From: Sphingomonas quercus
GTDB lineage: Bacteria; Pseudomonadota; Alphaproteobacteria; Sphingomonadales; Sphingomonadaceae
Assembly: GCF_018863195.1 (NCBI RefSeq)
Contig: NZ_JAHKRT010000002.1
Location: forward strand, 124,001 to 188,000
DNA length: 64,000 nt
Direction of reading: 5' to 3'
The translations under genes and the position numbers were made by a program. Each line of letters opens with the position of its first letter. Within the stretch, counting starts at the first letter, position 1. The notes beneath the pieces are model-generated. The model ran no database searches. It saw only the letters and a list, made by a program, of their open reading frames with translations, and was not told where the DNA came from. Shown here piece by piece: positions 8,916 to 24,853 of this stretch.

Positions 8916-10309
8916 ATATGCTGCACGATATCGACCGCCTGCTCCGCCGCCGCCAGCCGGCTGACGAAATGCAGCATGTCCCCGGCTTCACCGAAGTGGA
9001 CATTACCGACGGCGAGATCGCGCGGCTGCAGCTGCGCCGCCCGATCGTTGCCGGCTCGCTGGTCGTGCTGGTGCTGGTCTTCGGGCTGCTGCTGTGGGCG
9101 GCGATTGCGTCGATCTCGGGCGCGGTGGTGGCGCCCGGCATCGTCCGCGTCGAGGGCAGCGCCAAGACGCTCAAGCATCGCGAAGGCGGCACCATCCGCC
9201 GCATCCTGGTGCGCGAGGGGCAGGCGGTGAAGGCCGGCCAGCTGCTCATCCAGTTCGACCGCGTCCAGGCGCAGGCGGCGCGCGACATCTACCAGTCGGC
9301 CTATGATTCCGCCGAGGCCAACCTCGCCCGTTTCCAGGCCGAGGCTGCCAATGCCGCGCAGGTCGATTTCCCGGCCGACCTTCTTGCCCGCCAGTCCGAC
9401 CCCAATGTCGGCATGCTGCTTGCCGGCCAGCGCACCCTGTTCGCGTCGCGGATGACGCTCTATCGCAGCCAGGCGGCGGTGCTGTCGGGCCAGGCCCAGC
9501 AGCTCGAAACGCAGATCCAGGGCCTGCAGGCGCAGGCCGCCGCGGTCGACAGCCAGGGCGAGACGATCATCGACGAGCTGCAGGGCGTGCGCGAGCTCGC
9601 CCGCGACGGCTACGCCCCGAAGACGCGCCTGCTCGCGCTGGAGCGGTCGGCGGCCGGCATCAAGGGCCAGCGCGGCCAGATCACCTCCGACATCGGCCGT
9701 ACGCGGCAGGCGATCGGCGAGATTCGCCTGCAGATCGCCCAGCTCGACGACAAGCGCCAGACCGACGCCGCCGACGGCATCCGCCAGGCGCAGGAGCGGC
9801 TGACCGACGCCGGACCGAAGGTGCGCGCCGCCGTGGAATCGCTCGCCCAGACCGAGGTGCGCGCGCCCGTCTCCGGCCACGTCTTCAATCTCACCCAGTT
9901 CACCGAGGGCGGCGTCGCCGGCCCCACCGAGACGCTGCTGCAGATCGTGCCCGAGGGCACCAAGGTGACGATCAACACCCGCGTCCGCCCGAACGACATC
10001 GCCTCGGTGCGCGTCGGCCTGCCGGCGGACGTGACGCTGACCGCCTATAATCCGCGCACCACGCCGCCGGTGCGCGGCCATGTCACCCTCGTCGCGCCCG
10101 ATGCGACGAGCGACGAGGCGACGCACGAATCCTATTACAATGTCCGCGTCAGCGTCGATCCGGGCGAGCTTGCCCGGGCCGGGCCGGACGTGCGCATGAC
10201 GCCGGGCATGCCGGCGGTCGTCAACATCGTCACCGGCAGCCGCACCATCCTCGACTGGCTGCTCGGGCCGATGACCGAGGCGATGCGGACGGCGATGCGC
10301 GAACGGTGA
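8912..10309 (+). CDS. HlyD family type I secretion periplasmic adaptor
   Basis: 465 residues. A short cytoplasmic head (~45 residues) precedes one transmembrane helix (about 47-72, VAGSLVVLVLVFGLLLW). The first biotinyl-lipoyl half follows (GIVRVEGSAKTLKHREGG, typical of HlyD/PrtE), then a long Q/A-rich coiled-coil hairpin (~120-300), the second lipoyl half with the signature VRAPVSGHVFNLTQFTEGGV, and a C-terminal beta-barrel with TPGMPAVVNI. It bridges the ABC exporter in the inner membrane and the TolC duct. The start overlaps the ABC gene by 4 nt and the end overlaps the sulfotransferase start by 4 nt (GTGA), so all four genes are probably one transcript. Confidence 0.95.
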   Translation: MNMLHDIDRLLRRRQPADEMQHVPGFTEVDITDGEIARLQLRRPIVAGSLVVLVLVFGLLLWAAIASISGAVVAPGIVRVEGSAKTLKHREGGTIRRILVREGQAVKAGQLLIQFDRVQAQAARDIYQSAYDSAEANLARFQAEAANAAQVDFPADLLARQSDPNVGMLLAGQRTLFASRMTLYRSQAAVLSGQAQQLETQIQGLQAQAAAVDSQGETIIDELQGVRELARDGYAPKTRLLALERSAAGIKGQRGQITSDIGRTRQAIGEIRLQIAQLDDKRQTDAADGIRQAQERLTDAGPKVRAAVESLAQTEVRAPVSGHVFNLTQFTEGGVAGPTETLLQIVPEGTKVTINTRVRPNDIASVRVGLPADVTLTAYNPRTTPPVRGHVTLVAPDATSDEATHESYYNVRVSVDPGELARAGPDVRMTPGMPAVVNIVTGSRTILDWLLGPMTEAMRTAMRER

Positions 10310-11058
10310 CCGCGGGGAAGGTCGCCTTCCTCGTCGCCGGGGTGCAGAAAGGCGGCACGAGCGCGCTGTTCGAATATCTGCGCGGCCTGCCCGATCTGGT
10401 GCTGCCCGACGTCAAGGAAGCGCATTTCTTCGACGATGAGACGCGCGTAGACTGGGCGAGCCCGGATTACGCGCCCTATCACGCGCTCTTCCCGGATGAC
10501 GGCCGGCTACGTGGCGAGGCGACGCCGATCTATCTCTACTGGCCGCCAGCGCTGGAGCGGATCGCCCGCTACAATCCGGAGATGAAGCTGATCCTGCTGT
10601 TCCGCGACCCGGTGGCGCGGGCATGGTCGCAGTGGCAGATGGAATATGCCAAGCGCAAGGAGACCGAGCCCTTCGCCTGGTGCATCCGCGACGGGCGGCG
10701 ACGCATGGCCGATGCACTGCCCTTCCCCGGCCACCACCGCGTCTTCTCCTATGTCGAGCGCGGCTTCTATGGCAGCCAGCTGGCCCGCGCGCTGTCCCTG
10801 TTCCCGCGCGGGCAGTTGCTGTTGCTGCGCTCGGCCGACCTCAAGTCTGATCCCGATGCGGTGCTCGCCAGAATCGCGGATTTCCTCGGAATCGCCCGGC
10901 CTGCGGGACGGATTGCGCCGCGTCTCGTCCGCGTGGCGCCCGATATCGCCTACCCCTCCCGGCTGGAGCCCGAGGACGTGGCCTACCTGCAACGTATCTA
11001 TCTAGATGAGATGGATCGTTTCGCCTCGCTCGGCGGGCCGGACCTTTTCGGAAACTAA
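10306..11058 (+). CDS. Sulfotransferase family protein, coupled to the type I secretion operon
   Basis: 250 residues from a GTG that overlaps the hlyD-like stop (GTGA). The N-terminus FLVAGVQKGGTSALFEYL is the 5'-phosphosulfate-binding loop of PAPS-dependent sulfotransferases, and ILLFRDPVARAWSQWQMEY (about residues 90-110) is the 3'-phosphate-binding motif with its RDPxxRAxS signature. The family moves sulfate from PAPS to hydroxyl or amine groups of sugars or proteins. Embedding in a T1SS operon, beside glycosyltransferases, points to sulfation of a surface glycan or of the exported glycoprotein. No signal peptide is visible, so it should act in the cytoplasm. A second, unrelated-length sulfotransferase lies at 18681-19856. 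The acceptor is unknown. Confidence 0.9.
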   Translation: MTAGKVAFLVAGVQKGGTSALFEYLRGLPDLVLPDVKEAHFFDDETRVDWASPDYAPYHALFPDDGRLRGEATPIYLYWPPALERIARYNPEMKLILLFRDPVARAWSQWQMEYAKRKETEPFAWCIRDGRRRMADALPFPGHHRVFSYVERGFYGSQLARALSLFPRGQLLLLRSADLKSDPDAVLARIADFLGIARPAGRIAPRLVRVAPDIAYPSRLEPEDVAYLQRIYLDEMDRFASLGGPDLFGN

Positions 11059-11398: not shown

Positions 11399-12580
11399 AT
11401 GGCTGTTACTTCTTCCAAAGTATACGTTTTCGAGAACACGGATGCGGGCGAGGCTGCGGCCTTCACGGCCGATGACTTCCTCGCGTTCGCGAACAGCAGC
11501 GTCACCGCCACCAACATCGGCGTCACCGCCGGTTCCGGCGTCGGCGCGGGCATCACGCTCACTGCCGCGGGCACGTCGCTGACGTTCAACGCCGCCGAGA
11601 TCGCTGGTGCCAGCCAGCTTGGTCAGGTGCAGTTTGACGACGGTTCCTCGCTCGTTATCGGTGTGAACAGCACGGCCGCCGACACGCTCGACCTGTCCGG
11701 CTCGGAAGTGAAGAACGTGATTTATGGCCTCGCTGGCGATGACACGATCACCGGCAGCGACAACGGCGACTACATCTATGGTGGTCTCGGTGCCGACTCG
11801 GTGGTTGGCGGCGACGGCAATGACCACATTTACGGCAATGCTCTGACCTCGACCCAGGGTGCGGATGACGGCGCTGATCACCTTTCGGGTGGCGCGGGCA
11901 AGGACTACATCCAGGGTAACGCTGGTGCCGACACCATCATGGGTGGCACCGGTGACGACCGTCTGGTCGGTGGTTCGGGTGGCGACTCCATCAACGGTGA
12001 GGCCGGCAACGACAACATCAACGGTAACCAGGGTGATGACCGCATCGACGGCGACCTTGGCAATGACGTCCTCCGCGGTGGCCAGGGTGCTGACACCGTC
12101 CTCGGCGGCGCTGGCAACGACATCGTTTACGGCGACCTCGGTGATGACCGTTTGACCGGTGGCACCGGCCTCGACGTGCTGTTCGGCGGCGACGGCAAGG
12201 ACACGTTCGTGTTTGCCGCTGGCGACTCGACGTACCTGGCCGGGACGACGGGGACGAACGTCAACGTCACCGACATCATTGCCGATTATGCTGACGGCAC
12301 CGACAAGATCGACCTGGGCATGACTTTTGCCGCCGACCACATCCTGGTCGACACGCAGAACGCGGTGCTTCCGACATTGCAGGCTGCTGCGACCTATGCG
12401 GCGCAGCTCCTGAACGCGACGCCCAACGCTAACAGCAGCGAGGTTGTGGCGCTGGCAGTTGGCTCCGACACCTACCTGTTCTTCTCGTCGGCTGACACCG
12501 TCTCGACGGCGGCTGACAACGCCGTGAAGGTGGTTGGCGTTGCTCCGAACGTCTTCGGCGCCTCGGACTTCGTGCACTGA
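11399..12580 (+). CDS. RTX calcium-binding protein, likely main substrate of the adjacent type I exporter
   Basis: 393 residues, no signal peptide. An N-terminal ~105-residue acidic, Ala/Thr/Val-rich domain is followed by about 16 RTX nonapeptides (about 110-260: GGLGADSVV, GGDGNDHIY, GGTGDDRLV and so on), interrupted once by a longer insert (GNALTSTQGADDGADHLS). A ~115-residue repeat-free tail ends in ASDFVH. The repeats bind calcium and fold outside the cell; the tail should be the secretion signal. The same insert and tail occur in the protein at 3-1217. A GGAGG box lies 6 nt before the ATG. Codon use leans visibly to GGT, GCT and GTT, unlike the GGC-rich neighbours, which suggests high expression. 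A strong terminator follows. It could be an S-layer-like or matrix protein; I see no enzyme domain. Confidence 0.93.
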   Translation: MAVTSSKVYVFENTDAGEAAAFTADDFLAFANSSVTATNIGVTAGSGVGAGITLTAAGTSLTFNAAEIAGASQLGQVQFDDGSSLVIGVNSTAADTLDLSGSEVKNVIYGLAGDDTITGSDNGDYIYGGLGADSVVGGDGNDHIYGNALTSTQGADDGADHLSGGAGKDYIQGNAGADTIMGGTGDDRLVGGSGGDSINGEAGNDNINGNQGDDRIDGDLGNDVLRGGQGADTVLGGAGNDIVYGDLGDDRLTGGTGLDVLFGGDGKDTFVFAAGDSTYLAGTTGTNVNVTDIIADYADGTDKIDLGMTFAADHILVDTQNAVLPTLQAAATYAAQLLNATPNANSSEVVALAVGSDTYLFFSSADTVSTAADNAVKVVGVAPNVFGASDFVH

Positions 12581-12608
12581 GTTTTCCCGCTTAGGGAAAG
12601 CGAACGAA

Positions 12609-12635
12609 GGCCCGGTCTTAGACCGGGCCTTTTTT
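12609..12635 (+). terminator. Rho-independent terminator after the RTX gene
   Basis: A perfect 9-bp stem (GGCCCGGTC / GACCGGGCC) closes a TTA loop and is followed by six T residues. It ends the RTX transcript 29 bp after the stop codon and shields it from the convergent glycosyltransferase gene. Confidence 0.93.
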
Positions 12636-12680
12636 CGTACAGCGGAATGAAGCTACTTTCCTCGCGTGTCGCTCAGGCAT

Positions 12681-13892
12681 TCAGACCGTGTCGATCGCCC
12701 GTAGCCACCCCGCCGTCCCTGCCGCACGATCAAATCCTTCTAGCGCTTTCTTCCGCGCCGCCTTGCGCAAGCCTTCGAACCGCACAGGCTCCCGGGCGGC
12801 GTCGATCATCGCCTGCGACAGCGCGTCCACGTCGAAGAAGGGCAGCAGCCGCCCGTCCACGCCGTCGGTGATCGCGTCGCGCACCGGTGCGGTGTCGGAC
12901 GCCAGCACCAGGCATTCGCACGCCATCGCCTCGACCAGCGACCAGCTCAGCACGAACGGATAGGTGTAGTAGACATGCGCGGCGCCGATCGACAGCGCGC
13001 CGATCATCGCGTCATGCTGCACGCGGCCGAGGAAATGGACCCGGGACAGGTCCAGCCGGTCGCCCAGCTCGGCGAGCATCGCCGCCTTCCAGCCCTTCCC
13101 GTCGGGCGAGGCCTTGCCATAGCCAGACGGCCGATCCTCGCCGATGATCAGCGCGCGGCCGTCGGGCACCGCATCGAGGAACGCCGGCAGCGCGCGCATG
13201 AAGATATGGAAGCCGCGCAATGGCTCCATCGTGCGATTGATGAAGGTGATCACCGGCGTCGATGCGTCCAGACGGACATTGCCGGGCAGCACCAGCTGCG
13301 CGTCCGGCTCGCGGCGGGCGCGCGACAGGTCGACGCCCTCGTGAATGACGCTGATCCGGCTCTGCAGCACATCCGGGAAGGTCGCCGCCTGATGCGGGGT
13401 CGGGCAGATGATGCGATCGGCCAGCACATAGGCCATGGACTGGGCGGCGGCCTTGCCGTTGATGCGCATCCGCTCGGCAAAGTCGGGCATGCCGAACTCC
13501 GGATCGAAATCCGAATCGCCCCCGAACGGCCGGTAGAAATATTCGCCGAACAGGATCAGCCTCGCCTCCGGCCAGACCAGCTTGAGATGCAGGGTCTCGC
13601 CCCAGCCGGGATGGCCGATGATCACGTCGGGATGAAAGCCGTCGCGCTTCAGCTGGAGCGCGGCGCCGGCCGCCGCCTCGGCGCGGATCAGGTCCGCCTC
13701 GGCGCGGATCGCGGCGGGCACGATGTTCGGCGTGGTGCCGCGCTTGTTGGTCCAGCGGCGAAGGTCGACGCCCGGCCGGGCCGTCGCCGTGACGCCGCCG
13801 ATCGCGGCGACCTTGTCGCCCCGTGCCAGCAGGGCGGTGACGATATGCGGAAACTGGCCGGGGAAATTCTGATGGACGACAAGGATGTTCAC
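12681..13892 (-). CDS. GT4-type glycosyltransferase, last gene of the surface-glycan operon
   Basis: 403 residues from the GTG at 13892, which overlaps the M23 gene stop by 4 nt; this start gives the natural GT-B opening NILVVHQNFPGQFPHI. The N-terminal Rossmann-like half (1-190) has GHPGWGETL and a FGEYFY stretch. The C-terminal donor half includes SVIHEGVDLSRA, FINRTMEPLRGFHIFMRAL and the E-x7-E-type block (LSWSLVEAMACECLVLASDT). GT4 enzymes move a nucleotide-sugar residue with retention. Similar proteins occur widely in capsule and exopolysaccharide clusters. It is the promoter-distal gene of the minus-strand array starting at 24853. The sugar transferred is not predictable. Confidence 0.9.
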   Translation of the reverse strand: MNILVVHQNFPGQFPHIVTALLARGDKVAAIGGVTATARPGVDLRRWTNKRGTTPNIVPAAIRAEADLIRAEAAAGAALQLKRDGFHPDVIIGHPGWGETLHLKLVWPEARLILFGEYFYRPFGGDSDFDPEFGMPDFAERMRINGKAAAQSMAYVLADRIICPTPHQAATFPDVLQSRISVIHEGVDLSRARREPDAQLVLPGNVRLDASTPVITFINRTMEPLRGFHIFMRALPAFLDAVPDGRALIIGEDRPSGYGKASPDGKGWKAAMLAELGDRLDLSRVHFLGRVQHDAMIGALSIGAAHVYYTYPFVLSWSLVEAMACECLVLASDTAPVRDAITDGVDGRLLPFFDVDALSQAMIDAAREPVRFEGLRKAARKKALEGFDRAAGTAGWLRAIDTV

Positions 13893-14815
13893 AGACGGAC
13901 CTCGAATTCGCGCATGATGGCTTCCTTTCCCTGCCGGATGACGCTGTAGCGGGCGCGATAGCGGCCCCCCGGCCAGCCGGCCGCGGGCGCGCGCTTGCCG
14001 GCGAAGAGGATGGTCTGGGCCTTGGCGCGGTCGAGCGGCTGGGCGCGATTGTCGGCCAGCGTCTGTCCGTCCGGCCCGGTCACCACCAGCCGTTGCACGT
14101 CGCCGCCCTCCAGCCCGATCGCCTGCACGAAGGCGACAAGCGGGCTGGTCCGCCCCGGCGCCGGCTGCTGCGCGGCGCCCAGCTCCTGCGCCTGGGCCAT
14201 CGTCACCGGGCCGGCGGCGAAGCCCGCGACCAGCACCTCGCCGCGCCGATAGGCCGGGGTCGCCGCCCACAGGCTGCGCCCGCCGCGGCACTGGCCCGCC
14301 GCCGCGCCATAGGCGAACGGATCCACCGCCTTGCCATTCTCGCGCACGGTCAGATGGACGTGCGGAAACTCGGTGTTGCCAGAAAGCCCGACCTTGCCGA
14401 GCACCGCCCCGGCAGCGACCTGCTGGCCCGGCTTCGCCACCACGCTGCCCTTGGCCATGTGGCAATATTGGCTTTCCCAGCCGCCGCCATGATCGATGAC
14501 CAGGCCGTTGCCGCAATCCTGGCCGGCAGCGAAGGCAGCGTCGCGCATGGATATGTCGGCCATGCCGTCGCGCACCCGCAGCACCGTGCCGGCGGCGGCG
14601 GCCAGCACGTTCACGCCCGCCCGCTGGCGCGCCATCGAGGGGATGCGGAAATCCGTGCCGTCATGCTTGTCATAGGTGTGATCGCCGCACGCATAATCCC
14701 TGGCGCCGGGGCCGGGATCGTGATCGGGCAGCGATTGCACGGCGCAGTCCATCCCCGGCGTGCAGGCGATGGGGAGTTGCAACACCGGGGCGGCGGCGAG
14801 CATCAGCGCGATCAT
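13889..14815 (-). CDS. M23 family metallopeptidase (LytM-type), secreted
   Basis: 308 residues. The start ATG at 14815 overlaps the stop of the giant glycosyltransferase (ATGA). The N-terminus MIALMLAAAPVLQLPIA is a short signal peptide. The LytM core contains the metal motif HDGTD (~57-61) and the HVHL motif (~155), with an intervening G-rich beta core (GNGLVIDHGGGWESQYCHM). Known members cut peptidoglycan cross-bridges or serve as inactive scaffolds; here the zinc ligands H, D and H appear present. An extra ~120-residue C-terminal domain follows the peptidase fold. Tight embedding between two glycosyltransferases suggests it opens the wall for, or anchors, the surface polymer made by the operon. 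Confidence 0.88.
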   Translation of the reverse strand: MIALMLAAAPVLQLPIACTPGMDCAVQSLPDHDPGPGARDYACGDHTYDKHDGTDFRIPSMARQRAGVNVLAAAAGTVLRVRDGMADISMRDAAFAAGQDCGNGLVIDHGGGWESQYCHMAKGSVVAKPGQQVAAGAVLGKVGLSGNTEFPHVHLTVRENGKAVDPFAYGAAAGQCRGGRSLWAATPAYRRGEVLVAGFAAGPVTMAQAQELGAAQQPAPGRTSPLVAFVQAIGLEGGDVQRLVVTGPDGQTLADNRAQPLDRAKAQTILFAGKRAPAAGWPGGRYRARYSVIRQGKEAIMREFEVRL

Positions 14816-17800
14816 CGGACGAGAGCCTCCAGCCGTTCGAGCATCATCGGGGCGACGGCGCCGACGGTGCGAGTCGCCCATAGCCGGTCCTGGGCCGCCG
14901 CGGCGCGGGCGCGCGCCTCGTCCGGCCGGTCGAGCGCCCAGCTGAGCGCGCCGTGCCAGTCGTCGGTGGCAAGCGCCAGCGCCGCCAGCGACGGGTCGGC
15001 GCCGTAGGCCGGCCCGCTGGCGACGACGGGCAGCAGGCCCAGCGCCGCATAGTCGAGCAGCTTGATGTCGGACTTGGCGCGATTGAAGGCGTTGTCGGCG
15101 AGCGGTGCCAGCCCCAGGTCGAACGGCCCCTGCGCGCGCAGCCAGCGCACGAAGCGGGGATAGGCGATCACCTCCGCCGGCAGGCCGATGCGCCGCAGCC
15201 ACGGCGCGCCGTCCGCCTCGGCGGCGACGCCGATCAGGGTGAGATCGAAACGGTCGGGCCGCTCTTCCCACAGCCGGTCGAGCGCCGGGCGCAGCATGGC
15301 GAGGTCGGCGTCGTGGGTGTGCGTGCCCATGTAGAGCAGATGCAGCCGGTCACCGCCGAAGGGCGCGGGACGGGCATGGCGCCAGTCCCGCCATAGCCGG
15401 GGATCGAGCGCGTTGGGCTGCACGTGCCGCCGCCCGGCCACCTTGGCGTAGAGCGCGGCGAGCGGCGCGGTCGAGAACCAGGTCTCGGCCGAGGCGGCGA
15501 TCGCCCGTTCCAGCGCGGCGTTGAGCGGAGCGTAGCGCGCCGCCTCGGGATGATCCGGCCCGATGGCGATGAAGGCGTCGTCGACATCGGTGACGAGTGC
15601 CGCGCCCATCGCCCCGAGCCGCCCGACCAGCCTGTCAACCGCCGCCACCGAGGACAATGCCGTGCGCTGGACGACACAGATGTCGGTGCCGTCGGGCAGG
15701 GGATCGCCCTCGGCGCCCAGGCTCACCACCGCCCGCCCGCTGACGCTCTCGTCGGTGAGCGGGCAGATCAGGCGGATATAGGCCGAGCTTTGCGGCCCGT
15801 GCGGCCCGAAGGGCGCGACGATGTGGACGCGGACCGGCGCCTTGCCGATGATCGCCGGCGCGACTGGTGGCCCGGCGAGGCCGAGGGCGGCGCAGGCATC
15901 GCCGACGAGCCGCCGTGCCCGCGCGTCAAAGCTGTGTTCGTCCGCCACCCGCCTCGCCAGGGCGAGGTCGCGCGGGCGGCCGGCGGCGGCGTCGAGCGCC
16001 GCGCGCAACGCCGCCGGACCGTCCACCTGCGCCACCGCGTCGCCGAACACGTGGCCCATTGACGGCACCGGATCGGAAATCGCCCGGCCGGCGCTCGCCG
16101 CGATGTCGAACAGCCGATTGGAAAGGTAGCCGAACGCACGCATCGACGGCCAATGATCGTTGAGCACTGCCCCCGCCGTCGCGTAGAGCGCACCAAGCCG
16201 GCGATTGTCGATGTTGGCCGCCCGGACCAGCTCCGCCGGCACCCGGCCCTCCCAGCCATCGCCATAGATGACCGGCGGTCGCCCCGCCGCGATCGCCCAA
16301 TTGACGATGTCGCGGTCGACCCCGCGCGAATTGCCGACGAACACCAGCGGCTCGCTTTCGGGCGCATCGACAGGGTGGAAGCGCGCCGGGTCGGTCGCCT
16401 GCAGCAGCGCGGCGACAGGCGGACGGATCATGTGGCGGAGCAAGGCCGCATGGCTCTCGCTCGCCACATAGACCCGCGTGAAGCGATCATATTCCTCCAG
16501 CGGCACCTGATCGGGGTGGCTGATATTCCACAGGAACGCCATCTGGCCGGGGCGGGGGGTGTAGGGGATGAGGCCGCGCAGCACGATGGCGACATCCTCG
16601 TCGGCAAGCGCGTGGCCGGTCCAGCGCTCGCGCACGTCGACGCGCGCCTTGTGGCCGAGCCGTTCGATCGCGGCGCCGAGCGCCTCGGCGAAGTGCCAGT
16701 CGCCCCACGCCGCCTTGTCGGCCTCCGGGGCGGCGATCTTGATCGCGAAATTGAGCACGATCTTCGCGGCGAACGCCGGCGTGCCGGTGGCGAGGGCGAA
16801 GCGATTCTTCGTCCACACCAGCTTCTGGAACGCCGAGGATTCGCCGACGGTGATGCGGGCCATATCCGCCTTGCCGTCGAAATAATCGCAGCCGACGAAC
16901 GGGGCGTAGCCGACCGGCCGCGCGCGCCCGATGCGCAGGATCAGATCCCAATCGACCATGCGGCGCAGGTTGGCGTCGAAACCGCCGGTCTCGGCGAGCA
17001 GCTCACGGCGGTGGCAGAAGGCGTTGAGGTCGACATAATTCTGGGCGAGGCACGCCTCCCAGTCGAAATCGTCGCCGCGATAGCCGGTAAGCTGGCCAAG
17101 ATCGTCGCGCAGCGCGATGCCGCTATAGGCCGCGTCGAGCCCGCGCGCGGTCATGAACCGGACCATCACCTCAAGGAACCACGCCGCCCAGCGATTGTCG
17201 CTGTCGAGATAGGCGATGATGTCGCCGCGGGCATGTTCCAGCCCGAGATTGCGCGCCGCCGACACCCCGCCATGCCCGCCTTCGATCAGCCGCACGCGCC
17301 CGTCGCCGAGGAAGCCCGCGACGATGTCGCGCGTCGCGTCCGTCGAGCCGTCATCGACGACGATCAGCTCGAAACGGCCGTGGCTCTGCGCCAGCACCGA
17401 GCGGATCGCCGCCCCGATCGACGCCTCGCGATTCCACGCCGGCATGATCACCGAGACGAGCGTGGCGCCCGCCTTTGCCGCCACCCGATCGGGCAGCTGT
17501 GCCATTTCGCGCAGGAAGGCGGCCTCGGCAGCGACGTCGAAATGCCGGTAAAAACGGCGCGGCCTTTCGGCGTCCTGGTAATCGGGCTGGCTGATCGGAA
17601 TCGCCACCCGCCCTTCCGCCGCGCCCGTCTCCAGGAAATGGCGCAACGGATCGCCGGTCACATCGTCATAGGCGCGGCGATAATAGAGGCCGTCGAACAG
17701 CGGCCCGGTCGATCGCCCTTCCGGCGCGCCATGATGGGTATAGTGGTAGAGCGGATGCATCCCCGCCCGGAAGACGTCCTCGTGGATGCGGTTGTACCAG

Positions 17801-18684
17801 GCGGAGGAGAAATAGGGGTTGGGATCCAGCGCGTCGAGGTCGCGGCCGTGGCGGATATAGTCGATCAGAGGGTTGCGCCGGCCGATCAGCGCGGCGAGCT
17901 CGGGGTCGAGCGGCCCGACATTGCGCTCGGCGCGCGCTACGAGGCTGCGGATGATCGGCTCGTGATCCGGCGCGCCGGGCGCGGCGACGGTCTCGATCTC
18001 GCCATCTTCGCCGACCAGCCCGATGCGACCGCCATGGGCCACCGGCGCCAGGCCGATCAGCCGCTCAAGCGCGTGGGCGAGGGTGCCGTCGCGCTCCCCG
18101 CCCTCGCCGAAATCGCCGAACGGGATCAGCCGTTCGAGCAGGCCGAGCCGCGCCCAGAAGAAGGTGCCTGCGAAGAAGCCCCAGTCCGCCGGCGGGTAAT
18201 AAGGCGCGAGCAGGCGGGGGGCGAGCTCGGCGAGCAGCTCGGCGTTGCGGAACTGGTGGCTCGCCGCCGACTTGTAGAGCGCCCGCGCGCCGACCAGCGC
18301 GAGGTCCGCATCGTCCGCGAAGGCGGCGATGATGCGCTCGACCAGCGCGGCGTCGGCGATCGTCCCCTCATAGGCCATCGCCCGCCATTCGGGCGCATAG
18401 CCGGAATCCCCCTTCTTGGTATGGAGATGCGCCACCGCCTCGACGCCGAGATCGCGCAGCTGCGGCAGGACGTGGAGCAGCGGCCCGATATCCCAGCCGA
18501 GATTGGGCGTCTCGATCGTCCGGACCGCGGGCAGCGTTTCCAGCGCGCGCGCGACCGCCGGATCGAGCGGGCCGCAATGGGTGGCCAGCACGGCAATGTC
18601 CGGCCGTCCCAGCCGGGCGACGCGCCCTATCAGCTCGATGGCGACGTCCGGGTAGAAGAGATGGAGGTGGATTGCCGCCTTCAT
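14812..18684 (-). CDS. 1290-residue glycosyltransferase with RgpF-like, GT2, CgeB-like and GT4-like modules
   Basis: Modules in order (rough residues): rhamnan-synthesis-F-like domain 1-240 (HLHLFYPD, NLGWDIGPLL, HLHTKKGD); two copies of a ~35-residue WY...DV...HY...GA.EGR repeat 288-360; a GT-A family 2 domain 405-640 (VSVIMPAWNREASI, VVDDGSTDATRDI, DSDN as the metal-binding DxD-type motif); a CgeB-like GT-B domain 700-935 (FVGNSRGVDRDI, GDGWEG, LFDIAASAGRAISD); and a second GT-B-like half 950-1285 (TDVDDAF, YMGTHTHDADLAML, KLLDYAALGLLPVV). Such a chain could add several sugars in sequence during polymer assembly. Both ends overlap neighbours by 4 nt. Together with the protein at 1221 it is one of two RgpF-containing giants in the island. 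Linkages and sugars are unknown. Confidence 0.88.
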   Translation of the reverse strand: MKAAIHLHLFYPDVAIELIGRVARLGRPDIAVLATHCGPLDPAVARALETLPAVRTIETPNLGWDIGPLLHVLPQLRDLGVEAVAHLHTKKGDSGYAPEWRAMAYEGTIADAALVERIIAAFADDADLALVGARALYKSAASHQFRNAELLAELAPRLLAPYYPPADWGFFAGTFFWARLGLLERLIPFGDFGEGGERDGTLAHALERLIGLAPVAHGGRIGLVGEDGEIETVAAPGAPDHEPIIRSLVARAERNVGPLDPELAALIGRRNPLIDYIRHGRDLDALDPNPYFSSAWYNRIHEDVFRAGMHPLYHYTHHGAPEGRSTGPLFDGLYYRRAYDDVTGDPLRHFLETGAAEGRVAIPISQPDYQDAERPRRFYRHFDVAAEAAFLREMAQLPDRVAAKAGATLVSVIMPAWNREASIGAAIRSVLAQSHGRFELIVVDDGSTDATRDIVAGFLGDGRVRLIEGGHGGVSAARNLGLEHARGDIIAYLDSDNRWAAWFLEVMVRFMTARGLDAAYSGIALRDDLGQLTGYRGDDFDWEACLAQNYVDLNAFCHRRELLAETGGFDANLRRMVDWDLILRIGRARPVGYAPFVGCDYFDGKADMARITVGESSAFQKLVWTKNRFALATGTPAFAAKIVLNFAIKIAAPEADKAAWGDWHFAEALGAAIERLGHKARVDVRERWTGHALADEDVAIVLRGLIPYTPRPGQMAFLWNISHPDQVPLEEYDRFTRVYVASESHAALLRHMIRPPVAALLQATDPARFHPVDAPESEPLVFVGNSRGVDRDIVNWAIAAGRPPVIYGDGWEGRVPAELVRAANIDNRRLGALYATAGAVLNDHWPSMRAFGYLSNRLFDIAASAGRAISDPVPSMGHVFGDAVAQVDGPAALRAALDAAAGRPRDLALARRVADEHSFDARARRLVGDACAALGLAGPPVAPAIIGKAPVRVHIVAPFGPHGPQSSAYIRLICPLTDESVSGRAVVSLGAEGDPLPDGTDICVVQRTALSSVAAVDRLVGRLGAMGAALVTDVDDAFIAIGPDHPEAARYAPLNAALERAIAASAETWFSTAPLAALYAKVAGRRHVQPNALDPRLWRDWRHARPAPFGGDRLHLLYMGTHTHDADLAMLRPALDRLWEERPDRFDLTLIGVAAEADGAPWLRRIGLPAEVIAYPRFVRWLRAQGPFDLGLAPLADNAFNRAKSDIKLLDYAALGLLPVVASGPAYGADPSLAALALATDDWHGALSWALDRPDEARARAAAAQDRLWATRTVGAVAPMMLERLEALVR

Positions 18685-19856
18685 GCCGCCTCTCCCCGGC
18701 CGGCGTCGCGCCGGGCCATCTGGCGGGCATAGAAGCCGGTATCGAACAGCGGGCTCGGATTGCGTCCTTCGGCAGCGCCGATGCGCAGATAATGGGTCGC
18801 CGGATCGAGCCCCGAGGCGGCGACGTCCGGATACGCGGCGCGATACCAGTCCGCATCGAACAGGCCGGAATTGCGAATCAGCTCCGCCGCCTCGTCCGGC
18901 TCCGGATCGGGAGCGGGTGGCGGGGGCGGTGGCGCCGGCTCGGCGACCGGCGCGGACGCCGGCGGCGCGACCGGGACGGGCGTCGGCATGCGGCGGTGAC
19001 GCAGTTCGTCATGGACGATATCGCCCTCCAGCCACGGCACCGCGTCAAGCCGGGCATAAGCCGCATCCAGGGTCGCCCGCGCGGCGCTGTCGTCGGCCAG
19101 CTGCAGACGGTCCAGCCCGGCGCTCACTGCCGCGACGATGCCCGCCAGCGGCTCCTCCAGCGCGGTCGTCTGTTCGCCGCGATGATGGCGCAGGCCCGGA
19201 TCGAGGAAAGCAGAGATCGCCTCCGCATCCGCCGCGTCCGGGACCCAGCCCGGCCTTCCGGCGAGCGGCGCCACCCGGCCGAGCGTGCCCCGCCAGTCGA
19301 CGAGCAGCGCGTCATAATCGACCACCGCGCGCATCATGCCACGCGTCGCCCGTTCGGCGTCGATCATGTGGCGCAGCCACAGCAGGTGGGCATAGGCGCT
19401 GGTGGTGCCGTCACGCCGCGCGATCGACCCGGCGATCTCATCGGGCTTGCGCAGCATCAGCACCGCGCGCGCGGCGATGCCCATACCGGCCAGCACCTCG
19501 GCGACGACCGGCACGAACCGGCATTGACGCGGGTCCTTGATGGCGATCAGCGGCGCGTCGCCCCACGCCGCGGCGATCGCCTCGGCGATCCGCTCCTTGC
19601 GCGAGTTGAGCCCGCCCGGCGGCAGGCGGGACCAGTCGAGCGGCCGCGGATCGAACCAGCTCGATCGGCACACCCGGAGCAGCTGGTCGTCGGCCTTGAC
19701 CAGCCCGGCGCTCTCGAAATAGCCGCGCGCATTGTCGGCGTGCGGATCAATGCCGTCGGCGGGCAGCGCCGCCCCCAGCCGCCCGACCGCCCAGGTCAGC
19801 GCCGAGGTGCCGGAGCGGTGCATGCCGAGGATGAGGATGGCGGCGCGACCCATCAC
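18681..19856 (-). CDS. Sulfotransferase family protein with C-terminal WY-repeat module
   Basis: 391 residues. ILILGMHRSGTSALTWAV at the N-terminus is the PAPS 5'-phosphosulfate loop; VLMLRKPDEIAGSIARRDG (~130-150) is the matching 3'-phosphate region. A proline-rich linker (~290-320) leads to a C-terminal segment (~328-380, GLFDADWYRAAYPDV then HYLRIGAAEGRNPSPLFD) that repeats the ~40-residue module seen twice in the giant glycosyltransferase downstream. The shared module suggests a common docking or acceptor-binding role; that is inference. The enzyme should sulfate a glycan intermediate in the cytoplasm. It overlaps both neighbours by 4 nt. Confidence 0.87.
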   Translation of the reverse strand: MMGRAAILILGMHRSGTSALTWAVGRLGAALPADGIDPHADNARGYFESAGLVKADDQLLRVCRSSWFDPRPLDWSRLPPGGLNSRKERIAEAIAAAWGDAPLIAIKDPRQCRFVPVVAEVLAGMGIAARAVLMLRKPDEIAGSIARRDGTTSAYAHLLWLRHMIDAERATRGMMRAVVDYDALLVDWRGTLGRVAPLAGRPGWVPDAADAEAISAFLDPGLRHHRGEQTTALEEPLAGIVAAVSAGLDRLQLADDSAARATLDAAYARLDAVPWLEGDIVHDELRHRRMPTPVPVAPPASAPVAEPAPPPPPPAPDPEPDEAAELIRNSGLFDADWYRAAYPDVAASGLDPATHYLRIGAAEGRNPSPLFDTGFYARQMARRDAGRGEAA

Positions 19857-20836
19857 CGGGCCCCTTCCGCTTCGCCTTCGACATAGGCCGCGACCATCCG
19901 CGCCACGTTCGCTGCGACCAGCTCGTCCCGGACATGGACGAGGTCGTCCTCCCAGGCCAGCGCCCGGTCCGACATGGTGACGCTCTCATAGGAGGGGAAA
20001 TAATCGACGTGCGGCCAGGCGCGCACCGCGCATTCCGCGGCGACCCGCAGCACCGCCTTGCTATAGGCGTTGGCGGTCATCGCATCGCCGCCGGAAAAGG
20101 ACCGCGCGAACGGCACGGGCGATACCGTCATCAGCAGATGGGCAGCCGGGTTGCGTGCGTGGAGCCGCGCCACCAGCCGGTCGACCGCGGCGATCACCGC
20201 GTCCGGCGCCAGCGTCTCGAACTGGAAGCGGCCCGGATAGCGCTCCACCAGCGCGCGCGGCGCGGTATCGTTCAGGTAAAGGCCGGCTTCCCGGTCGAAC
20301 CACGCCTCGACCAGCCCGAGGGTGACGATGACCACCGCGCTCCCGTCGATGGCGCGGGCGTAGAGATCGCGGATCTTCGCGCGTCTTTTCAGGGCGCGCT
20401 CCAGCGTCACCATCTCGGTGGTATGGAGCTGCCCGTCCCACCACGCATCCTCGCCCGCCTGGATGAGGAAGCGCCGTTCCTCGCCCTCCGCCCAGTCGAG
20501 CGCCGCCACTTCGTTGAGCATCGACAAGGGGGTGTATTTGTTGAGGATGCCGGTGATCATGCCGGTGCCCGCCCACAGCTCGGCCTTGGGCACGCGGAAG
20601 TCGAGCGTCGGGATGGTCAGGCCATGGCCGGCCAGGGCCTGCTCGATATGCCGCGCGAAGCAGGAACCGATGGTGAACACCGAGGCATCACGCCCGATCG
20701 TGAAGCCGGGAGTGAAGGCCGGCCGGCAGATCGGCTCGGCCCTCGCCTCGCCGCGCCCCGGCCATTTGGCGGCGCGGGTGGAAAGCGTGGCGCGGTAAGC
20801 CTCCTCAGCCGCGATCCTGCCGAACCCCTTGGTCAT
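19853..20836 (-). CDS. GSCFA domain protein (SGNH-like esterase/acyltransferase candidate)
   Basis: 327 residues. The family motif is intact: FTIGSCFARHIEQAL (~54-68), followed by family-typical blocks ITGILNKYTPLSML, VVIVTLGLVEAW and LLMTVSPVPFARSF, and a late YFPSYE.VT. The GSCFA family resembles SGNH hydrolases, with G-S-C supplying the serine of block I, but its reaction is not established. In polysaccharide loci a role in adding or removing acyl groups is plausible. A paralogue is encoded immediately upstream (20858-21931), 21 bp away. The stop overlaps the sulfotransferase start by 4 nt. Confidence 0.87.
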   Translation of the reverse strand: MTKGFGRIAAEEAYRATLSTRAAKWPGRGEARAEPICRPAFTPGFTIGRDASVFTIGSCFARHIEQALAGHGLTIPTLDFRVPKAELWAGTGMITGILNKYTPLSMLNEVAALDWAEGEERRFLIQAGEDAWWDGQLHTTEMVTLERALKRRAKIRDLYARAIDGSAVVIVTLGLVEAWFDREAGLYLNDTAPRALVERYPGRFQFETLAPDAVIAAVDRLVARLHARNPAAHLLMTVSPVPFARSFSGGDAMTANAYSKAVLRVAAECAVRAWPHVDYFPSYESVTMSDRALAWEDDLVHVRDELVAANVARMVAAYVEGEAEGAR

Positions 20837-20857
20837 CGGCTGTGAGCGGTAGCCCGG

Positions 20858-21931
20858 CTATCGGGACTGGTCCAGCATCGCCTCATCGCACATCGTTTCC
20901 ACCCAGGCCCGTGCGGCGGCGACGTGGGCATCCTCGCGCGGTGCCGGCGCCGGCGCGGGCGGAGCGGCCGGCGCCTCGATCCCGGCGGCGTGGCGAAGGA
21001 ATACCGACATCACATGGGCAACGCCGGCCTCGGTCACCTCGCGCAGATCGTCCGCAAAGAACGCCCCGCGCGCCTGCGGGCCGGTGACGATCTCGTAGGA
21101 GGGGAAATACCAGGTATCGGGAATATCCTCCGCCGCTTCCTGCGCGGCCGCTCTCAGCGCCGCCTTTGAATAGATCGTCGCCGGCAGCACATGCCGGCCG
21201 GACGCCGTCGCCGCCAGCGGGACCGGCGACACCGTCAGCACCAGCCGCGCCTTCGGATTGACGCTGCGCAGCCGCGCGACGAAGGCGCCGAGCTGCGCGC
21301 GAATCTCCCCGGTGCGCAGGTTGCGGAAGGCGTGGGCCTGCTCGTCGAAGCGCCCGCCGGCGACCCCCGGGCAAAGCGGAAAGGCCGCCCCGTCCGCCCG
21401 GCTCACCCAGCCCTCGGTAAGGCCGAGCGTGAATACGAACACGTCGAGCGTCTCGAAGGCCTCGCGCACCTTTTCCAGATGCCAGGCGCGGTCGGCGCGC
21501 ATCTCGCCTTCCGAGGCAAAGCCGCCCGGCTGGATATTGGGACGGAACGGGTCGATCACCGACCCGTCGGCACCCTCCCACACATCCTCCGCCGGCGCGA
21601 ACTGGCCATAGGCGCGGTCGAACAGCTGGAGCAGCTGGAGCGTGGTGTAGATATTGCCGTAGCGCGCCGTGAACAGACCGTAGCCGGCGGCGCGCGCCGC
21701 CTCGGGCGGGACGATCGGATGGGCCGTCTCCGTCACCAGATAGTTGAAGCCGGAGGCGGCGAGGTGGCGCGCGATATGCTGGGCGAAGCAGGAGCCCGCG
21801 GTCGCCACCCGGTCCTCTCGTGCCAGGCGCAGGAACGGCCCCGCCACCGGATCGACGGCCGGGCCGGCGCCGGCCACCGCACGGCGCCAGAACGCACTGT
21901 CCGGCAAATGAGCATAAGGATGGCTGGCCAC
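20858..21931 (-). CDS. GSCFA domain protein, paralogue of the next gene
   Basis: 357 residues. GSCFAQHIARHL (~45-57) is the signature; the blocks GNIYTTLQLLQLFDRAYG, VFVFTLGLTEGWVSR, LVLTVSPVPLAATASG and WYFPSYEIVTG follow the same order as in the neighbour at 19853, so the pair arose by duplication or works as a heteromer. The N-terminus (HPYAHLPDSAFWRRAV) matches longer GSCFA members. It is probably an SGNH-type hydrolase or acyltransferase acting on a glycan. The C-terminal ~40 residues are Ala/Pro-rich. The gene is 70 bp downstream of the SGNH-like gene in the same orientation, with no terminator between them. Confidence 0.87.
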   Translation of the reverse strand: MASHPYAHLPDSAFWRRAVAGAGPAVDPVAGPFLRLAREDRVATAGSCFAQHIARHLAASGFNYLVTETAHPIVPPEAARAAGYGLFTARYGNIYTTLQLLQLFDRAYGQFAPAEDVWEGADGSVIDPFRPNIQPGGFASEGEMRADRAWHLEKVREAFETLDVFVFTLGLTEGWVSRADGAAFPLCPGVAGGRFDEQAHAFRNLRTGEIRAQLGAFVARLRSVNPKARLVLTVSPVPLAATASGRHVLPATIYSKAALRAAAQEAAEDIPDTWYFPSYEIVTGPQARGAFFADDLREVTEAGVAHVMSVFLRHAAGIEAPAAPPAPAPAPREDAHVAAARAWVETMCDEAMLDQSR

Positions 21932-22001
21932 GTGATGCTTTCCGGGTTGTCGCTACCCGGTGGCGATCATGCCCCCTTATCGGCCCGCCGTCACCTGACG
22001 A

Positions 22002-22736
22002 TCAGAGCGACTCCAGCGCCCGGATCACCGCCTCGCCATAGGCGGCGTTGCCGTGAGTGGCGTCGGCCGCGAAATCGGAGCGGAGGAAGCCGTCGGCATC
22101 CTGCGTTTCCGCCGGCACCGGCAGGAACCGGCCACCCAGCCCTTCCACCGCCTCCCGAAACAGCCGGGAATTGAGCCGCCACAGCCGCCAGCGCAGCGCC
22201 GCCGGCGCGACGGCGATCGCCGGCCCGCCGCGCTCCCGGAACCAGGCGTCGGCGCGGGCCGCCACCCAGTCGCCGTCGCGCACCGGGGGCGGGCTTTCGA
22301 CATGGATAAACGGCCCGCCAAGGGCGCGAAGCAGCGTCAGGCGCGCGAAGTCGCGGGCAAGGCCGGCCGCCAGCGCCGACCGCACCAGCGCCTCGGCGAT
22401 CGGCTCGGCGTCCGGATCGGGCGGCGGCCCGGCCTCGTCGGAGAGCAGGAAATCGAACGGGCGGGGATGGCGCAACAGGCCGATCGCATTGTGGTAATTG
22501 CCGCCCATCACCGAGGCGAGGCGTGGATGGTGGCGGTCGATCTGGTCGCGGACGGCGGCGGCGAGCGCGTCGGTGAAGCGCGCCTCGTCACCGGCGCTGA
22601 CCAGCTCCGGGGCGTAGCGCGGCTCCAGCGTGTGGATGACGCGCGTGCGTGGTCGATCCGGATCGGCCTCGCGCCGGGCGCGCGCGGCGTCGCGGATCGC
22701 GGCGACGTGGCTCTGGCCGATGACGAGGATGTTCAC
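22002..22736 (-). CDS. Uncharacterised SGNH-hydrolase-like protein
   Basis: 244 residues from the GTG at 22736, which overlaps the upstream stop (GTGA). I do not recognise a named family. Three landmarks suggest the SGNH fold: VIGQSHVAAIRDA at the start (block I with GQS in place of GDS), MGGNYHNAIGL (~95, block III with its asparagine) and DATHGNAAYGEAV near the C-terminus (block V D-x-x-H). The middle is Arg/Ala-rich and helical. With two GSCFA proteins downstream it would be the third SGNH-type protein in the array, fitting O-acyl modification of a polymer. Catalytic competence is unproven. Confidence 0.75.
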   Translation of the reverse strand: MNILVIGQSHVAAIRDAARARREADPDRPRTRVIHTLEPRYAPELVSAGDEARFTDALAAAVRDQIDRHHPRLASVMGGNYHNAIGLLRHPRPFDFLLSDEAGPPPDPDAEPIAEALVRSALAAGLARDFARLTLLRALGGPFIHVESPPPVRDGDWVAARADAWFRERGGPAIAVAPAALRWRLWRLNSRLFREAVEGLGGRFLPVPAETQDADGFLRSDFAADATHGNAAYGEAVIRALESL

Positions 22737-24853
22737 GCCACTGCCTCCACCCGTCCGCCGGCCGGCCCGTCGGCGCTGGCAAAGCCGGTGAGCGTGATCG
22801 TCTCGTCCGGCCGCGCCATCTCCGCCGCGATATCCAGCGCGAAACCATGCGCGCCGCCGTCCGGCAGATCGGGTCGCGGCAGCTCGCTGCCGGTGCGCGC
22901 CAGCAGGCGGCCGTCTGCTCCGTGCGCCTCGATCGCCGGCGCCGCACCCGGCCAGTCCGGCGCCCACAGCCAGCCGCCGAGCCGCATCGCTCCTGCCGCG
23001 TCGCGCTCGACCGTGTCGACATGGCCGGCGAGGCGCGGCGCCGGGCGTGCGGCAAGCCGGGCGAGCGCTTCGGGCAGCGGCTCGTCCTGCCGCCCGCGCT
23101 CGCTCATCCGCGTCGGCCGGCCGAGCCCGGCGGCGTGCATCGCGGCGACCGTCAGGCCGAGCAGCTGGATGCCGTCGAAATAATCGAAGCGGCGTTCGCG
23201 CAAGGCCGTGAGCAGGGCCCCCCGGTCCAGCCCCTCCCACAATCGGCCCTCCGCGCGTCCGAGGATGTCGCTCAGGAACGCCCGCACGCCGGCATTGCGG
23301 TTGATCGAATATTGCCAGGTGCCGAACAGCTTCGTCCCCGCCGCGGCGACCAGCGGCGCCGTCTGCTGCGCAGCGAGCGAGGCGTCCCAGCTCTGGTGGG
23401 CAAAGGGCAGGGCGAGCAGCGCCGGCGCGGCGCGGCGGACGATCTCGTAATGGGCGCGCTCCGCCTTGCGCTCGGCCGCGGTCATGCGGAAGGCGAGCGC
23501 CTGCAGCGCCGGCGCGCCGAGCGGCATCACCGGCTGGCGCTCGAACGATTTGATGGCGCGGATGCCGCCGAGCCAGTTGGGCACGCGGTTGCGATAATAG
23601 AACAGGTCCGGCAGGTCGGCGTCGGTGGCGCCCGCGCGGCGCATCACCGCGAAGCCGTCCGCCAGCTCTTCGGCAAGCGCCGCCCGCGCGCCCGGCAGCA
23701 GCAGGCCGAGCGGGTCGAACGGCGCCTGCAGCCTGACCAGCGCGATCGGATCGCCGTCGGCCGTCGGCGCCCGTTTGGCATAGGCCTTCAGCACCTCGCC
23801 CATATGGCCGGTGACGAGCGTGTCCTGCCCCAGCTTCGCGCCGGTGATCAGGTCCCAGCCGCCGATGCCGCCGTCGCTCTGCCAGGCCAGTGCCGCCATC
23901 TCGGCGGCGAAATGATCGACTGTCCAGTCGGTGGCGATGTCGCTGCCGAGCGGCGGCTCGCGCCGATGGGGCAAGCCGAGCGCGGCGGCGATCGTCCGGC
24001 CGGCGGCGATATCGGGGTGCCCGTCATGGCCGCGCGTGAACAGGGTCAGCCGCTCACCGAGCCCGGCGGACAGCGCGAGTGCCAGCACCGCGCGACTGTC
24101 CTTGCCGCCGGTGATCGGCAGGTCGAGCCGGCCGTCGCCGGCCGCCAGCCGGATCGCGGCGCGGCCCTGGGCCATGCCCTCGTCGAGCAGCGCTTCGTCG
24201 AAGCCGCGCTCGCCGCCGACCGCCGCCGCCGGATCGGCGATCGCACGCAGCGCCGCCCCGCCCGGTCCGGAGACCAGCATGCGCGCCTGGGGAAGCTGGC
24301 TGACGCCGCGCCATCCGGTCGCCGTGCCGACGCGATAGCCGATCGTCGAGGTCCACAGGCCGGGGTCGGCGACGCCGTCCTGCCCGAGTTCGGCGAGCCA
24401 GCGGGCGCGATTGGCGATCATCGCCGGACGGTCGGCGCGGCGGAATAGCTGGTGCAGGCCGGCTGCGTCGGAAAAGGCGGTGAGCGTGCCGCACGCATGC
24501 AGCCGCGCCACCGCAAATTCGCCGGCGACATCGGTCGGCAGCGCCTTGCCCGGCCGATCGAGCAGCGCCGCCACCTCGGCCGCGTCGAGCAGCGCCGCGC
24601 GCTCCCCGGCGATCCGCCAGATCAGGCCGTGAATCACGCATGCCTCTTGCCCGTCCGACCAGAACTGGGCCGCCGCCGGATAGAAGCGCGTCGCCGTCGC
24701 CAGCGCGGCGACTTGCCAGCGTCCGCCGCCGGTCGCGACCGGCATGAAATGCTCACATTGCGGGACGATATGCGCCGTATCGCGCAGCCGCGTGCGCAGG
24801 GATGCGGCCGACCCCGTTGCCTGATCCTCGCGCCAGAGGGCGAACAAAGCCAT
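22733..24853 (-). CDS. Asparagine-synthase-like protein lacking the glutaminase cysteine
   Basis: 706 residues; first gene of the minus-strand array. The N-terminal ~230 residues follow the class II amidotransferase layout (GEFAVARLHACGTLTAFSDAAG), but the chain begins MALFALWR, so the catalytic Cys2 is absent and glutamine is unlikely to be the nitrogen donor. The synthase domain has the PP-loop LPITGGKDSRAVLALAL (~245-262), close to SGGxDS, needed for acyl-adenylate formation. The last ~110 residues form an extra beta-rich domain (AGHVDTV, GGWLWAPDWPG, ELPRPDLPDGG, HGFALDI). AsnB-like proteins in polysaccharide loci may amidate carboxyl sugars or amino-acid substituents; here the substrate is open. 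A candidate attenuator or small RNA precedes the gene. Confidence 0.85.
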   Translation of the reverse strand: MALFALWREDQATGSAASLRTRLRDTAHIVPQCEHFMPVATGGGRWQVAALATATRFYPAAAQFWSDGQEACVIHGLIWRIAGERAALLDAAEVAALLDRPGKALPTDVAGEFAVARLHACGTLTAFSDAAGLHQLFRRADRPAMIANRARWLAELGQDGVADPGLWTSTIGYRVGTATGWRGVSQLPQARMLVSGPGGAALRAIADPAAAVGGERGFDEALLDEGMAQGRAAIRLAAGDGRLDLPITGGKDSRAVLALALSAGLGERLTLFTRGHDGHPDIAAGRTIAAALGLPHRREPPLGSDIATDWTVDHFAAEMAALAWQSDGGIGGWDLITGAKLGQDTLVTGHMGEVLKAYAKRAPTADGDPIALVRLQAPFDPLGLLLPGARAALAEELADGFAVMRRAGATDADLPDLFYYRNRVPNWLGGIRAIKSFERQPVMPLGAPALQALAFRMTAAERKAERAHYEIVRRAAPALLALPFAHQSWDASLAAQQTAPLVAAAGTKLFGTWQYSINRNAGVRAFLSDILGRAEGRLWEGLDRGALLTALRERRFDYFDGIQLLGLTVAAMHAAGLGRPTRMSERGRQDEPLPEALARLAARPAPRLAGHVDTVERDAAGAMRLGGWLWAPDWPGAAPAIEAHGADGRLLARTGSELPRPDLPDGGAHGFALDIAAEMARPDETITLTGFASADGPAGGRVEAVA

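Follow-up and report, generated by a model that had tools for sequence, protein, structure and literature searches.

A sulfotransferase, SGNH and GSCFA gene array faces a type I secretion operon and an RTX gene in a conserved locus of Sphingomonas quercus

Within a 64,000-nucleotide (nt) stretch of Sphingomonas quercus DNA (NZ_JAHKRT010000002.1, contig positions 124,001-188,000; hereafter the window), we studied an array of eight genes at positions 12,681-24,853 that includes genes for glycosyltransferases, a sulfotransferase, an SGNH-like protein and two GSCFA proteins. The closest described counterpart of the SGNH-like protein and the adjacent GSCFA1 is found in the PipD-PipF-PipG O-acetylation complex of pseudotetraivprolide biosynthesis in Pseudomonas entomophila, where the O-acetyl group was lost upon deletion of pipF and pipG (PMC12828459). 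In 2022, GSCFA was counted among those SGNH families that had no known activity (PMC9487903), and in 2025 one of its members, PipG, was linked to peptide O-acetylation (PMC12828459). WcbI of the Burkholderia pseudomallei capsule is a CoA-binding enzyme that is said to need an unidentified partner and was reported as a novel fold (PMC4104973); a likeness to it was seen here by eye in the neighbour of one GSCFA1-type gene, at L108. Two described surface proteins (PMC3034196) invite comparison on the secretion side: Caulobacter RsaA, an RTX protein that is exported by the type I secretion system (T1SS) RsaD/E/F and needs smooth lipopolysaccharide (LPS) for surface attachment, and Synechococcus SwmA, an RTX protein that is apparently glycosylated. 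The RTX proteins of the window, at about 400 amino acids (aa), contrast with the 98 kDa of RsaA, to which the likeness is by description, and with the 130 kDa of SwmA. Unlike that of RsaA, the locus in the window also includes sulfotransferase, GSCFA-SGNH and AsnB-like genes. In open PMC text covering the literature on GSCFA, RTX/T1SS glycosylation or sulfation, SwmA and WcbI, no description of this locus was found, judging by titles and the openings of abstracts.

The array lies opposite a T1SS operon that ends in its own sulfotransferase gene and is followed by an RTX gene, and the gene content, conservation and strand layout of this larger unit were observed directly. With a rough probability of 0.62, we consider the array to be half of a two-operon locus whose sulfated and O-acylated glycan, made in the cytosol, works together with an exported RTX protein.

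Gene content and conservation of the locus

A first-pass annotation of this DNA had described eight overlapping genes on a single strand. This layout was borne out: the minus strand carries all eight, and the junctions at 22736, 19856, 18684, 14815 and 13892 each overlap by 4 nt, with gaps of 70 nt between SGNH and GSCFA1 and 21 nt between GSCFA1 and GSCFA2. The conserved unit is larger than the array. The T1SS operon, its 250-aa sulfotransferase (sulf250), a 1390-aa glycosyltransferase, a second RTX protein (21-1217) and the recurrence of SGNH and GSCFA as a pair had all been absent from that annotation. ABC transporter, membrane fusion and outer membrane genes as well as RTX repeats, which together mark a T1SS with an RTX substrate, are present in the window.

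Strong matches to the AsnB-like protein of the array were obtained in 6 of 249 family genomes (own genome included), and the 1290-aa glycosyltransferase was found at E <= 1e-60 in the same six; five further family genomes gave weak AsnB-like matches (E 2e-7 to 8e-5). Both halves, namely the array and the T1SS with sulf250 and RTX, are present in all six genomes, which represent three genera. Identities to the window in the five other genomes were 50-76% for array proteins where present, 49-71% for the T1SS proteins and sulf250, and 36-45% for RTX. The array itself varies: GSCFA2 occurs in 2/6 loci, GT4 in 5/6 (absent from G043), the order of SGNH and GSCFA1 is swapped in G110, and in G114, G174 and G220 the sulfotransferase is separated from GSCFA1 by other genes. 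A 4-nt overlap joins AsnB and SGNH in 5/6 loci (GSCFA1 intervenes in G110), and likewise hlyD and sulf250 in 5/6 (a 1-nt gap in G043). The first-pass proposal had been made dependent on co-occurrence of the families and on their order in relatives, and the set was indeed kept in all six genomes, with the changes listed above. This conserved set is more than chance.

Each half has a strand of its own, a terminator-like inverted repeat divides them, and in G114 about 9 kb of other genes separate RTX from GT4. These features would fit two unrelated neighbouring units, one a glycan cluster and the other a T1SS that exports a small RTX protein, but the halves stay together across six genomes and three genera, and a glycan-type sulfotransferase gene sits inside the T1SS operon. 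We therefore regard mere neighbourhood as improbable and a shared role of the array and the T1SS/RTX half as likely.

An order-level sample was also searched with the AsnB-like query, which gave matches at E <= 0.001 in 31/396 genomes; only the own genome and G043 matched strongly (E 0), the next being G426 at 2e-27. Among named genomes the same query returned 11 loci, nine from sphingomonads and one each from Tabrizicola (33%) and Thiobaca (34%). As far as the flanks reach, eight of the nine sphingomonad loci have the same neighbours (one of them, L032, is the G043 place); the remaining one, L034, is a contig of only 3.3 kb. The AsnB-like relative of Thiobaca trueperi (34%) lies beside a T1SS ABC transporter (42%), HlyD (37%) and glycosyltransferases.

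Three side observations were made at these loci. In the Thiobaca trueperi region (L041:4535-16575), SapC, T1SS ABC, HlyD, GT2 and AsnB-like genes share a strand, with a gene for a 1446-aa glycosyltransferase opposite. In a metagenome-assembled sphingomonad the M23 match is split across two frames (L039:21063-21982), and in Sphingomonas sp. Y57 a second GSCFA1-like gene (51%) occupies the place of GSCFA2 (L035:14860-15888).

Two candidate markers were discarded. GSCFA does not mark the whole set, as 0/20 loci from the class search had AsnB-like, glycosyltransferase, sulfotransferase or HlyD matches, while a few of them gave weak, general ABC or RTX matches. Likewise, sulf250 does not mark a T1SS beyond the six genomes: 55 kb was fetched from each of the next-best carriers, G071 (50%) and G236 (45-46%), leaving out nine weaker ones, and neither stretch contained a T1SS match.

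The SGNH and GSCFA1 gene pair

SGNH and GSCFA1 are adjacent in all six loci, and they constitute a recurrent gene pair. The GSCFA family PF08885 was found in 18/289 class genomes and 29/378 phylum genomes; a few genomes, the own one among them, enter both counts. We fetched 20 (class) and 28 (phylum) stretches with GSCFA genes, setting aside the own genome and any place fetched before; partial matches were kept only where they fell inside a fetched stretch. These contained 21 and 28 GSCFA open reading frames (ORFs), respectively, of which 9 and 24 were of the GSCFA1 type (36-55% to GSCFA1). An SGNH neighbour was called by one rule for all classes of ORF: same strand, an N-terminal G[NDQTS]SH close to the focal ORF, and D-x-x-H further on. 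Under this rule, SGNH was adjacent to 7/9 class and 7/24 phylum GSCFA1-type ORFs (14/33), and one fusion in each sample brought the count to 16/33. The same rule gave 0/16 for the other GSCFA ORFs (12 class and 4 phylum) and a background of 5/394 for other ORFs of >= 200 aa at the same loci, mostly where GSCFA has such a neighbour. Fisher's p for 14/33 versus 0/16 was 0.0017, which serves as a guide only because the genomes are related. With a broader motif, chosen after the misses, the counts became 21 adjacent plus two fused (23/33, including L166, which was taken uninspected), 0/16 and 11/394. A hand count by motif alone gave 17/33; L173 drops out under the D-x-x-H rule, having Glu for Asp. 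Both GSCFA-SGNH fusions are single ORFs, located at L107:8833-10656 (608 aa) and in L178 (593 aa).

SGNH proteins are recognised by block I (G-x-S), block III (G-x-N) and block V (D-x-x-H), and all three motifs are invariant in the six orthologues of the SGNH protein. An alignment of 25 SGNH proteins, five from this locus and 20 partners from elsewhere, showed G7, S9 and H228 to be invariant and D225 to be conserved in >= 90%. Weak matches (E 0.0028 at best) to PF19040, the SGNH domain that is fused to AT3 acyltransferases, were obtained for five of these 25. On the GSCFA side, C48 is invariant across eight aligned rows while His52 varies, and the GSCFA motif was present in 49/49 GSCFA ORFs of both samples.

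The pair resembles PipF and PipG in several ways (PMC12828459). The important Cys of PipG directly follows a Ser (S46 C47), as does Cys48 of GSCFA1 (S47 C48), and the Ser46-Cys47-His51 spacing equals that of S47-C48-H52, though H52 varies. PipF is an adjacent partner with a Ser...Asp-x-x-His arrangement (Ser18, Asp208, His211), to be compared with S9, D225 and H228 of the SGNH protein. The substrates are unlike, being a nonribosomal peptide for Pip, whereas the context here is one of glycan and T1SS genes. By analogy, SGNH and GSCFA1 probably form a soluble two-protein O-acyltransferase that adds acetyl groups. Both proteins are probably cytosolic, because neither has a hydrophobic stretch. 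The opposite activity, that of esterases removing acyl groups, would be in keeping with the many esterases of the SGNH clan (PMC9487903). It is nevertheless unlikely in view of the probable cytosolic location, the loss of the O-acetyl group in the pipF and pipG deletions (PMC12828459) and the weak matches to the AT3-fused SGNH domain.

With respect to genomic context, SGNH-GSCFA1 lies beside KpsM/KpsE or sulfotransferase-RgpF genes at L106, L111, L155 and L156, and in G1082 the genes for SGNH, GSCFA1, a sulfotransferase, an epimerase and RgpF are consecutive. The GSCFA1-type locus of G1123 is found near giant ORFs that appear by eye to encode nonribosomal peptide synthetases (NRPS), which speaks against a glycan-only role. 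Giant NRPS-looking ORFs adjoin GSCFA1-type ORFs at L154 and L179, where no SGNH neighbour was found. At L108:8396-9325, a GSCFA1-type gene adjoins one whose product has an NCQ motif near the N-terminus and looks WcbI-like by eye.

Enzyme families and feature coordinates

The family names of the first-pass annotation largely hold on the basis of Pfam, motifs and relatives, although for the 391-aa sulfotransferase the window itself gives weak evidence. Pfam calls were firm for both GSCFA proteins, for the RgpF, GT2 and GT1-like domains of the 1290-aa protein, and for the M23 and GT4-type proteins; PF08885 matched GSCFA1 with 177.8 bits (E 4e-52) and GSCFA2 with 148.3 bits (E 4e-43), at a cut-off of 25 bits. 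The match of the 391-aa sulfotransferase was under the cut-off (E 0.03), and two scanned orthologues were still just under it (E 8e-6 and 9e-6). No Pfam or NCBIfam match up to E 0.1 was obtained for the AsnB-like and SGNH-like proteins of the window, and the NCBIfam matches of the ten scanned proteins were broad only and all below cut-offs. A sequence search of solved structures gave nothing useful for the AsnB-like protein, the 391-aa sulfotransferase, SGNH or GSCFA. Among the eight array proteins of the window, M23 alone has an N-terminal hydrophobic stretch; marginal internal stretches occur in GSCFA2, GT4 and the 391-aa sulfotransferase, and a stronger one in the 1390-aa glycosyltransferase.

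The AsnB-like protein starts with MALF in 6/6 genomes and lacks the N-terminal glutaminase Cys, while it carries a PP-loop-like TGGKDSR. Its relative in G426 (25% over 490 residues) matches PF00733 over the cut-off. A structural model was of low confidence (pLDDT 54), and all of its 21 Foldseek matches at E <= 0.001, with 1ct9 at the top, are asparagine, beta-lactam or carbapenam synthetases; as TM-scores were only 0.11-0.20 and the rmsd about 19 A, only the ranking of these matches was used. The protein is like E. coli AsnB and beta-lactam synthetase in its TGGKDSR and perhaps in the fold, as Foldseek suggests on this weak model, and unlike E. coli AsnB in the missing Cys, the extra C-terminal module and the lack of a Pfam match of its own. 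Beta-lactam synthetase likewise is not known to have the glutaminase Cys. Because this Cys is absent, glutamine-dependent amide transfer is unlikely, and the amide transfer proposed in the first-pass annotation is not upheld in the sense of a transfer from glutamine.

The sulf250 protein matched Sulfotransfer_1 (E 2.8e-12) and heparan-sulfate 3-O-sulfotransferase (E 4e-19, residues 9-198), but unlike the heparan sulfate 3-O-sulfotransferases it is bacterial, has no hydrophobic stretch and is encoded together with a T1SS. An APS (adenosine 5'-phosphosulfate) kinase domain was found in 6/6 genomes. In addition, 19 of 260 called ORFs from the six regions carry a repeat that spans some 30-36 residues and reads roughly FDxxYYxxxPDV...HYxxxGxxEGR (in the window at 14812-18684 and 18681-19856; also at L029:14277-15245). 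All 19 belong to four protein types of the locus: the 1290-aa glycosyltransferase (6), the 391-aa sulfotransferase (5), a 322-aa methyltransferase (5) and an 883-918-aa protein (3), of which the 851-aa counterpart in the own genome gave no repeat match. Pfam did not name this YPDV/EGR repeat in the proteins scanned; it may be a docking module that holds enzymes together.

The features of the window are collected in Table 1. Past its left edge lie genes for a methyltransferase, a methyltransferase/GT34-type protein and a TPR-glycosyltransferase.

Table 1. Features of the two-operon locus, in window coordinates
Feature	Position	Strand	Remarks
AsnB/beta-lactam-synthetase-like ATP-dependent ligase (putative)	22733-24853	-	706 aa; no glutaminase Cys; extra C-terminal module
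SGNH-like protein, GSCFA1 partner	22002-22736	-	244 aa, GTG start; GQSH 7-10, GGN 78-80, D225-x-x-H228
GSCFA1	20858-21931	-	357 aa; PF08885; GSCFAQH with Cys48
GSCFA2	19853-20836	-	327 aa; PF08885; in 2/6 loci
Sulfotransferase	18681-19856	-	391 aa; GTG start at 19856; C-terminal YPDV/EGR repeat
Glycosyltransferase	14812-18684	-	1290 aa; RgpF domain, two YPDV/EGR repeats, GT2, GT1-like
M23 peptidase	13889-14815	-	308 aa; N-terminal hydrophobic stretch; HDGTD and HVH motifs
GT4-type glycosyltransferase	12681-13892	-	403 aa, GTG start
Inverted repeat, likely two-way terminator	12601-12637		between convergent RTX B and GT4 genes
RTX protein B	11399-12580	+	393 aa; probable T1SS substrate
sulf250 sulfotransferase, heparan-sulfate 3-OST type	10306-11058	+	250 aa; 4-nt overlap with hlyD
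HlyD-type membrane fusion protein	8912-10309	+	
T1SS ABC transporter	7110-8915	+	
TolC-type outer membrane protein	5405-7081	+	
TPR-RgpF-GT4-GT2 glycosyltransferase	1221-5393	-	1390 aa; kept in 6/6 loci
RTX protein A	21-1217	+	398 aa

Proposed glycan, its export and the RTX protein

In the two-operon reading, the two large multi-domain glycosyltransferases and the GT4 enzyme would build the chain, to which the two sulfotransferases would add sulfate, with PAPS (3'-phosphoadenosine 5'-phosphosulfate) supplied through the APS kinase of the cell. SGNH and GSCFA1 would jointly act as a soluble O-acyl(acetyl)transferase, as PipF and PipG appear to in Pseudomonas, the AsnB-like enzyme would couple an acid to some amine that is not ammonia from glutamine, and the M23 peptidase would open peptidoglycan for export or assembly. 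The glycan would then either be attached to the RTX protein before export or be a surface polymer that holds it. The first-pass proposal of a set that builds and decorates a surface glycan is supported to the extent that a conserved set is kept beside an RTX gene.

A number of observations weigh against this reading. As regards the pair, even the broader motif leaves at least 10/33 GSCFA1-type ORFs without a neighbouring SGNH gene, and a polysaccharide gene was detected at only 4/33 GSCFA1-type loci (ten queries, stretches of 6-20 kb), most pairs not being near one. The likeness to PipF and PipG is by motif and spacing only, and PipF is called a hypothetical protein in the paper, not SGNH (PMC12828459). 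Asp208 of PipF and His51 of PipG are not among the residues found important there, Thr238 likewise is not named as confirmed, the complex needs PipD as a third protein, and pipDFG in E. coli with related compounds gave no acetylation (PMC12828459). Solubility is not certain for every enzyme, given the internal hydrophobic stretches of the 1390-aa glycosyltransferase and the 391-aa sulfotransferase. An alignment of eight RTX proteins contained no invariant Asn sequon and no invariant Ser, with one invariant Thr. Tabrizicola was rejected as a linked case, since the scanned neighbours of its AsnB-like relative included no recognised glycan genes. Finally, an ordinary capsule is possible because a gene for a KpsM-type capsule exporter is found at a distance of some 15 kb or less from the closest locus gene in 4/6 genomes (G043, G110, G174 and G220).

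Such a sulfated capsule or O-antigen would leave by a KpsMT-type or other exporter, and the RTX protein would bind to it non-covalently, as the Caulobacter RTX S-layer protein does to LPS; we give this a chance not far short of even. Besides the nearby KpsM genes, it is favoured by the SGNH-GSCFA1 pairs beside KpsM/KpsE or sulfotransferase-RgpF genes, by ABC-2 genes near the Thiobaca AsnB-like relative, by Wzy-type proteins, which occur in 6/6 genomes though none at the locus, and by the holding of RsaA by smooth LPS (PMC3034196). On the other hand, the KpsM relative of the own genome is about 170 kb distant (L146:7883-16941, accompanied by ORFs judged, in part by eye, to be KpsE-like, ABC and glycosyltransferase-like), and the one KpsM query used had no match in G114. 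The Pfam matches of the scanned locus proteins included no flippase, no polymerase and no initiating sugar-phosphate transferase. Given the placement of KpsM and Wzy-type genes over the six genomes, we leave export by a capsule transporter undecided, as neither clearly required nor excluded.

Alternatively, the RTX protein might receive the sulfated, acylated glycan while still in the cytosol and leave through the T1SS as a glycoprotein. The coupling of sulf250 to hlyD, the co-location of both halves in 6/6 genomes, the presence of both in G114 where the KpsM query had no match, and the precedent of the apparently glycosylated SwmA (PMC3034196) are consistent with this possibility. It remains doubtful, since the RTX alignment lacks a conserved site and the T1SS would have to pass a glycan-bearing chain. 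Within the two-operon reading, the glycan may be covalently attached to RTX or may not. A bolder version seems to us quite unlikely, namely that SGNH-GSCFA1 is a general, membrane-free, two-protein O-acyltransferase of Pseudomonadota that here would decorate a sulfated glycan; this glycan would be joined to the RTX protein before it leaves the cytosol, and the T1SS would export a sulfated, acylated glycoprotein.

A glycan-type sulfotransferase joined to a T1SS operon would be an unusual way to dress or anchor a secreted protein. The pairing with SGNH, together with the two fusions, gives the GSCFA family a testable role.

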